64,000 bases of DNA from contig NC_134963.1 in assembly GCF_965638725.1 (NCBI RefSeq), positions 7,013,501 through 7,077,500 of the forward strand. Reading direction: 5' to 3'. This stretch comes from Aptenodytes patagonicus (Eukaryota > Chordata > Aves > Sphenisciformes > Spheniscidae). Under the pieces are notes generated by a model, which searched no databases, had not been told where the DNA came from, and worked only from the letters and a program-made list of their open reading frames with translations. Of the stretch, positions 24,401-27,400 are shown piece after piece. Every line of letters starts with the position of its first letter. Within the stretch, counting starts at the first letter, position 1. A program made the translations under genes and the position numbers.

Positions 24401-27400
24401 TGTTCTTCCCAAAAGGAGGCCAGGTCGGCCAAAACGGTCACCGCCTTCTGTCCTCTCGTTGGATGTGTACTCGGGCAAAACCATAGAACCTCCTCCTGTG
24501 CCAGTGGCCTTGGTGGAAAGTGCTGTGGGCAAAGAGCTGTTGAGTGGACATCCTGATGCTTTCTATGGACTGAAAGACCCTGAAGCCGTCACCCTGGACT
24601 TCAGGAATGACGGTTTCCACGACAAAATAGCAGCTGAGACAGTTGCAGAGAAACTGCCATTTAAAGAACTGGAGAACCAGTGGAATGAAGACTTCAAGGA
24701 AGAAGAAGCTCACGTGAAACCTAAAAGACAGTGGCGAAGGCAGAAGAAGACGCCTGAGGACCTCCCAGTGATTCCTTCCCCTGAGTATTCCCCACCCCGG
24801 CCTCAGTTCAGGCCACGCTCCGAGTTTGAGGAGATGACCATTTTGTATGATATTTGGAATGGAGGCATAGATGAGGAAGATATCAAATTCATGTGTATCA
24901 CATATGACCGCTTGTTACAGCAGGACAATGGTATGGACTGGCTCAATGACACCCTGTGGGTATTCCATCCTTATATCCTTTCTCGCTGGCGCACTATGTT
25001 ACACAACACATGTAAGATGCACTAGATGGTCATTGCGTAGGACTTAAAATGCAAAAGACTTAAGTTTGTTGGTGGAAGAAGCATTTGCTTACTAGAATAG
25101 CAATTGCTTGTATCAGCAGGGAATTTTAGACTTTTATTCCCTGAAGCTGCAATACAAAAATACTGCAGAAGTGGCTGTTCTTGGTGCATTTTCAATCTAG
25201 GACTGCAGGGAAAATCTGTATGCACCTCTTCTGGGGACATTTCCTTGCTTGTTTGAGAAGCTTCTGTCTGCATTTAAACCAGACTTTTTTTCAGCTTGCC
25301 TGTGGAATTTCTGCACATACAGGGCTTTAACTTGGGGCTAAAACTTGCTGTAAAAATAATCTCACCATCTGTGCCCAAAATGATGAGTTAGTGGTGCTAG
25401 CAGCTTTAACTTGCTTTGAGTTTGAAATACTAATAAAAGCAATGGTTTTTAAGTGGCACATCAGGGACAGACACGGCCCCGGGCTGGATGGGGGAATGTA
25501 CTGCTAATGCTGCAGCGAGTAGCGTGTGTAGCACTGGCTGGTGCTGGTGGGGCAGAGTCTGGCCCCATCCCCTCCCTCCCTGCCCATGATCAGCAGCACA
25601 GGCTGTAGCTTTGAATCTTTGGGAGCATTTTTGGGACACCCATGCTGTCTCAGAACAAGGCTCTACATGTGTACAGCCACAAGTAGTGATCTTCAGAACA
25701 GAGCCCAGAAGGCTGTTCTCATAACCTAAGAACTCTCTAGTATTGTTCTTATGAAGGATATATGGATTTATATGTTAAAGAAGACAAATGCACCACCTCG
25801 TGTGTTGCTAGAGATTGTGTGGAGTTAAAATATCTCATCCCTTACTCCCTGCAAGACATGAGAGCAAAAGAAAAAAGCCCAAACTACTTAAAATAGTCAG
25901 TGATATGATCCTAACAAAAAGCAAGTGGAGCTCAGGACTGAGCTGTGCATTTTTATCCTTTCTTTCTCTGCATCTCAAAGGGCAATGTGTAAGATGAAAT
26001 TTATAATTTTCTGCCTTTTCATACCAGCGCAATAGTCGTGAAATAGATTTATTTAATTGTTTAAAGGAAATATTCTAAAAGGGTGATGAAATGCATCATC
26101 CCCAGTAATTCTCAGTCTGTATCTGCCCCACTTGGGGAAGCAGTTCCAAAACCAAACCAGTTTCAAGGTGGGAGTAATTGGCCCTGCAGTGGTGGGCGAC
26201 CACAGCCAGCGAAAGGCAGAACGGGACGGCTGAGGGTAGAGCTTGCCTGTGACCGTGCATGTAAATGTGTTTGCGTTTGGCAACTTACATAGTGGAAATG
26301 TTTGAAATCTGTTTCCCTGTTGATAAGGATTATTGTAACAGCAAATTTACAGTCACTTTTTAAACCGTTTAATAATCATCTGCAGCTAGTTGCCGGTTCA
26401 TCCTGTGCTACACTACACGATAGGTGTGAAAGTACCTGCAGGGTTCACCTGCTTTGCAGCAAGCTCAGACCTCAGCATTCTGATTTCAAGGCCATCACTT
26501 CTTGCTTTTTATGGTCCCTCTGCTTCAATTTTCTGGTGTTAAGGATATGTTATGACTCAGAGGGAGCATTTTTGGGTAGATGTCAATCGTCGTAGGCTTC
26601 ACGGCTGTGTTTCTGGGGTGAGCTGCCAGGAGTACAGCTCCACTGTCTTTCCAGAAGCCAAAGACCTGAAGGTGCCTTCTGGCTGCTCAATGCAGTGAGT
26701 CCTTGCCAGGCCAGCTGCAGGTTTTCTTGACTGGTCAGGACAGTGGGGTTTGAAACATCTGCACAGGGTCTTACCCTTCCCATCAGGGTCTGAAGTAGCT
26801 GGTTTACTGAGGCTGGTGAGAGCAGCATCTCTCTCCAAGCCCTTTGAGCTGAGGAGCGTCTTGCCCATCTGTGCTGCTTCTAGCCCTAGTCGGTGGGGAT
26901 GACTGCTGCCGTGAGATAGTGTGGTGTCTTCGGGGCTTGGGGTGGCTGCAGGGAGTTCTGGAGGTAGAACAAAAGCATGTCACTCAAAACAGGGAAAATG
27001 GTACATCCAGATGGCTGGGCAGCTGCTGTCTGTGTACGTAGTGGGTGCTGTGGGGAAATCCTTTCTCAAACAGGTTTCTCTTGACAGCTTAACCTTTTTA
27101 TGTTTAAATTTTCATTATCTCTTTACTTTAGTTTCCTAAAGCATGCAGCTAAGAAGGAAAGACCGTGCTTGGTTTTCCTGTAGGCATGTGGGCTTCAGTG
27201 ATGTTTTATTTTTCAATAGTATTATTTTTTGCAACCCCCCAAAACCTTCCTAATTTTCCAAGCTTCCAGCATTAGCTCCATGTAGCTGTAGCAAGTTTTG
27301 TCTGATATCCACTGGTGGCTGTGTTTCTCCTTAACTTCTTTCCACCTACTAGCTTTTCTACCCCCAAGAAAAAAAAGCGGGATGATGGGATGCGGGAGCA

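Follow-up and report, generated by a model that had tools for sequence, protein, structure and literature searches.

A probable AT-AC, U12-type intron within the N-SET region of a SETD1B-like gene in Aptenodytes patagonicus

The probable SETD1B locus

The window, that is, the whole 64,000-nt stretch of Aptenodytes patagonicus DNA that was analysed, holds on its + strand a gene that its encoded domains identify as a Set1-type H3K4 methyltransferase; our gene model covers the 3′ part only. Joining positions 24831-24972, 27346-27512, 27798-27929, 28587-28706, 29084-29221 and 29970-30143 yields a single open frame with a stop at its end (30143), after the N-SET and SET domains. All coding exons and splice sites described below lie on the + strand. 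The upstream coding exon (23416-24972), whose start was inferred by hand from an acceptor sequence, CCCCTTTCAG, ending at 23415, is covered by an open frame at 23340-25025 and ends with the first base of a Ser codon. It is followed by an exon at 27346-27512 (...GCARSEGYY...ADTQ), with GTGAGG directly after it, in which we take GCARSEGYY to be the WIN motif, and by an exon at 27798-27929 (GMSIPAQ...NQLK) flanked on both sides by U2-type GT-AG introns of phase 0. The SET domain starts in the exon at 28587-28706 (FRKKK...NIRQ), which was placed by the joined open frame and PDB matches, continues in that at 29084-29221 (VIADMRE...NHSCN, donor GTAAGT), and runs with the post-SET region into the last coding exon at 29970-30143 (PNCYAK...CRGTLN and stop), again placed by the joined open frame.

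In the joined product, Pfam N-SET (PF11764) scored 96.9 bits against a cut-off of 28.3, with a match covering residues 9-150. Among the best 60 of 115 PDB matches, the SET exons were closest to chains named 'Histone-lysine N-methyltransferase, H3 lysine-4 specific' (198-184 bits), which we take to be yeast-type Set1, with KMT2A-D next. The protein thus carries N-SET followed by a Set1/KMT2-type SET domain, as in Set1/COMPASS (SETD1) proteins. The only NCBIfam match, AnkI/LegAS4 over the SET domain, reached 41.2 bits against a cut-off of 550 and was set aside; it is taken to reflect the common SET fold. Searches for relatives of the protein gave none in plasmids, none confirmed among 11 pattern matches in viral contigs and none confirmed among 95 pattern matches in prokaryote genome contigs, which is the expectation for a vertebrate gene. 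Rfam at gathering scores gave no match in the 64-kb window.

The protein presumably resembles human SETD1B. Downstream of the gene, a Nas2_N (PSMD9-type) domain was detected at 84.8 bits (cut-off 23.2), together with seven WD-repeat matches, all under curated cut-offs; these fit the order SETD1B-PSMD9-CFAP251, which we take to be that of vertebrates. The first exons of the PSMD9-type gene lie at about 43640-44100, in a very G+C-rich segment (65.6% G+C over 42001-44000), and the WD-repeat-like coding stretches, with their sub-threshold matches, lie beyond them at about 59000-61700. Within the SETD1B region, a long, low-complexity Asp/Glu run at about 21234-21300, in a + frame at 21132-21740, is probably coding.

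Signals and frame of the probable AT-AC intron

We consider it very probable (about 0.95) that positions 24973-27345 form a genuine AT-AC, U12-type (minor) intron of the SETD1B gene, 2373 nt long and of phase 1. The putative 5′ splice site, ATATCCTTT at 24973-24981, agrees with the U12 AT-AC donor consensus, ATATCCTT(T), at 9 of 9 positions, as the sequence-only reading had claimed, and no other exact copy exists on either strand of the window. U12 branch sites follow the consensus TTCCTTRAY and lie some 10-16 nt before the intron's 3′ end. Here the 9-mer CTCCTTAAC at 27327-27335 matches that consensus at 8 of 9 positions and contains TCCTTAAC (27328-27335), previously proposed as the branch site; the intron ends 11 nt past the putative branch adenosine at 27334, a spacing that also agrees with the earlier proposal (27333 could be the branch instead). 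The 3′ end of the intron reads CTCCTTAACTTCTTTCCAC|CT. The terminal dinucleotides, AT at 24973-24974 and AC at 27344-27345, stand at an in-frame junction: joining 24972 to 27346 preserves phase 1, as had been predicted, and leaves the frame open as far as the stop codon (30143). Were a second AC, at 27348-27349, used instead, the frame would shift and run into a stop.

Donor, branch site, spacing, dinucleotides and phase, along with the protein-profile continuity described below, all support the AT-AC, U12-type assignment first made by the sequence-only reading. Its placement of the intron needs adjusting. The junction does lie inside N-SET, but about one-third of the way in (residue 53 of a match spanning 9-150) rather than between two halves, and the intron does not immediately precede the WIN motif, as the arginine of the presumed WIN motif is 24 residues past the junction.

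How often such signals arise by chance depends on where they are sought. In the window as a whole, 0.35 copies of ATATCCTTT are expected and 30 of 100 shuffled windows held at least one, so the 9-mer alone is unremarkable; position is what counts. A branch site plus AC was likewise matched once window-wide, where 1.28 matches are expected and 71 of 100 shuffles have one, which is not significant; this match was recorded through the second AC, at 27349. At the junction itself, an exact donor fell within 53 positions in 31 of 200,000 random first-order Markov sequences, and a branch core with at most one mismatch, followed by AC 8-17 nt downstream, occurred in 11,078 of 200,000 random 170-nt sequences. 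The product, the joint chance of both at a coding-frame join, is about 9e-6 before the phase requirement, a post hoc figure that assumes independence. A reading of the motifs as pure chance, near expectation for each taken singly across the window, was rejected only since both sit at the required in-frame places.

To rank the possible junctions, 100 in-frame AT/GT/GC pairs (donors 24900-25024, acceptors 27306-27459) were enumerated by script. The 24973/27345 pair came first by match to the U12 consensus, at 17 of 18; the next two, at 15 of 18, share its donor but have 6/9 branch sites. The 12 pairs best matching U12 and 14 GT pairs were examined individually. Scoring relied on hand-written consensus strings and U2 weights, a point against certainty. 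When the window was searched for further U12-like sites at 8/9 or better, 23 donors (13 on the + strand, 10 on the -) and 45 branch sites (18 and 27) came up, the donor at 24973 being the sole 9/9 donor. Two more stretches resembling the donor core, ATCCTTTCT at 25955-25963 and 27058-27066, occur within the intron; they may be chance occurrences or, possibly, decoys for U11 binding. Of this sequence the window holds 4 copies (1.03 expected; that count is attained in 5 of 100 shuffles), of TATCCTTT also 4 (reached by 10 of 100 shuffles), and of ATCCTTT 13 (reached by 30 of 100). By these shuffles the extra U11-like sites are weak, and they were left out of the argument.

The candidate intron differs in kind from those that follow it in the gene. 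Each of the four introns downstream is GT-AG with phase 0, whereas the AT-AC intron is phase 1. Three of the four were scored, giving U2 donor weight-matrix (PWM) values of 7.44, 5.93 and 7.11 and U12 donor matches of 2, 3 and 5 of 9; the donor at 24973 has a U2 PWM value of -5.32 and a U12 match of 9/9. In one published comparison, phase 0 is avoided by U12-type introns and favoured by U2-type ones, and 18% of U12-type introns in chicken have AT-AC termini, compared with 0.01% of the U2-type (PMC7367187). In another study, U12-type splicing required the U12 consensus motifs but was not ensured by them (PMC10853781), which is a point against certainty here.

Evidence of a different sort comes from the protein profile. 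The AT-AC join gives the N-SET score of 96.9 bits, above all three in-frame GT-AG products tested (24955/27353, 75.8; 24959/27369, 77.4; 25011/27427, 53.0). With the intron retained the score is 29.6 bits, and with the frameshifting join 25011/27353 it is 29.1. Both of these matches end at residue 52, a P encoded by the last whole codon before 24972; the two products are identical in sequence up to there, so that this ending is a single observation. It is what would be expected if the exon stops at the AT-AC donor, although a local alignment can also end a few residues away.

Alternative outcomes at the junction

Minor introns are removed by the U11/U12-U4atac/U6atac.U5 spliceosome. At this locus, U11 would pair with ATATCCTTT and U12 with CTCCTTAAC, A27334 or A27333 would serve as the branch point, and the 3′ splice site would be the AC ending 11 nt after A27334. 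Either A of a branch site can serve as the branch, according to the accessible part of PMC3584512. If the intron is retained, translation meets an in-frame TAG at 25023-25025. The strongest U2-like donor nearby, GTAAGA at 25012-25017 (CACAT/gtaaga), has a PWM value of 3.48, which tops the 11 GT donors evaluated over 24900-25100; used with a pyrimidine-rich U2-like AG acceptor at 27351-27352, 7 nt past the intron end, it shifts the frame to a stop. That this pair changes the frame had been noted from the outset, and the claim holds for the 25011/27353 join; overlooked, however, was an in-frame pair with the same acceptor, 24955/27353. Because retention and the stronger U2-like pair both truncate the product ahead of the WIN motif and SET, the WIN-SET part, and with it the SET domain of SETD1B, should depend on minor splicing: with a working minor spliceosome the catalytic half (WIN motif, SET) would be made, and otherwise a truncated protein.

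That this dependence also has a regulatory role, as a switch, is a speculative idea. Under low minor-spliceosome activity SETD1B could be shut down either by a poison isoform spliced at U2 sites (25011/27353) or by regulated retention, a proposal compatible with the AT-AC intron and one to which we give a minority share of belief. Both products reach premature stops before the SET domain, and basal retention is comparatively high among AT-AN introns (PMC8280824). Retained introns commonly meet a stop, however, so that truncation is not a specific sign of regulation, and longer minor introns, among which many are spliced efficiently, show retention less frequently, but alternative splicing more frequently (PMC6717393); the SETD1B intron measures 2373 nt. 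In its full form the proposal, which we hold just as tentatively, is that the AT-AC intron ahead of WIN and SET gates H3K4 methyltransferase output: low minor-spliceosome/CENATAC activity would leave SETD1B truncated, through retention or U2 splicing, with less H3K4 methylation as the result. If so, minor-spliceosome disease would be linked to chromatin.

The overlooked pair raises the prospect of a twintron. Its donor, GTGGGT at 24956-24961 (CCT/GTGGGT), combines with the AG at 27351-27352 to enclose the U12 intron within a U2 one, and the resulting second isoform, in frame and open, would lack WVFHPSTS while keeping an N-SET score of 75.8 bits. The arrangement, seen here as sequence only, matches a twintron whose inner member is the U12 intron, and the U2 pair is weak: its donor PWM value is 0.23, compared with 5.93-7.44 in the three neighbouring introns, and the N-SET score falls 21 bits under that of the AT-AC product. 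Overlapping U2/U12 intron pairs are described in 18 human genes, about one-third of them shifted rather than nested, in the accessible text of PMC3564746, and SETD1B is missing from the table of 18 given there. Use of this pair appears improbable.

Least probable of all, and very unlikely in our view, is that the major spliceosome removes the intron at a GT-AG pair and the AT-AC signals arose by chance: the strength of GTAAGA at 25012 and the pyrimidine-rich approach to the AG at 27351-27352 speak for it, but together these sites frameshift to a stop, the 14 in-frame GT-AG pairs listed have weak donors or acceptors within the next exon, the three such products tested have lower N-SET scores than the AT-AC product, and the AT-AC signals have a joint chance of about 9e-6 before phase.

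Relation to known minor introns

As a single intron, the AT-AC intron of SETD1B is a further, ordinary case of a well-known class that carries rare splice signals. Strong conservation is reported for vertebrate U12 introns, so the intron is probably present in mammals and not unique to this species; going by these conservation rates, it is most likely old and common to vertebrate SETD1B orthologues. In searches of openly accessible main texts and literature listings, we found no published report of a U12-type or minor intron in SETD1A or SETD1B; no word beginning SETD occurs in the main texts of PMC6865273, PMC8280824, PMC6717393, PMC2831892 or PMC10853781. The accessible texts put the MIDB catalogue at 770 human minor introns (PMC6717393) and U12DB, in one comparison, at 398 chicken and 691 human introns (PMC7367187), and there is a fair chance that the SETD1B intron may already be catalogued in one or the other. 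If human SETD1B has the intron, the gene would be counted with the minor-intron genes whose loss may play a part in minor-spliceosome disorders, and sequence changes affecting ATATCCTT or TCCTTAAC would have to be read as splice variants.

Set against other U12-type AT-AC introns, the SETD1B intron, known here from sequence alone, has no sequence difference: it shares the ATATCCTTT donor, a TTCCTTRAY-like branch site 11 nt from the terminal AC and a non-zero phase, and U2-type introns follow it in the gene. The PRMT1 twintron, as described in the accessible text of PMC3564746, is alike in having an AT-AC-class minor intron, surrounded by U2-like sites, in the gene of a methyltransferase that modifies histones; in PRMT1 the U12 intron is nested in U2 introns. 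The two differ at the intron end, which is AA in PRMT1 and AC in SETD1B, and in what the alternatives encode. In PRMT1 the U12 product is the NMD form and the U2 products are coding, whereas in SETD1B the complete protein would come from the AT-AC join and a truncated one from the stronger U2 pair.
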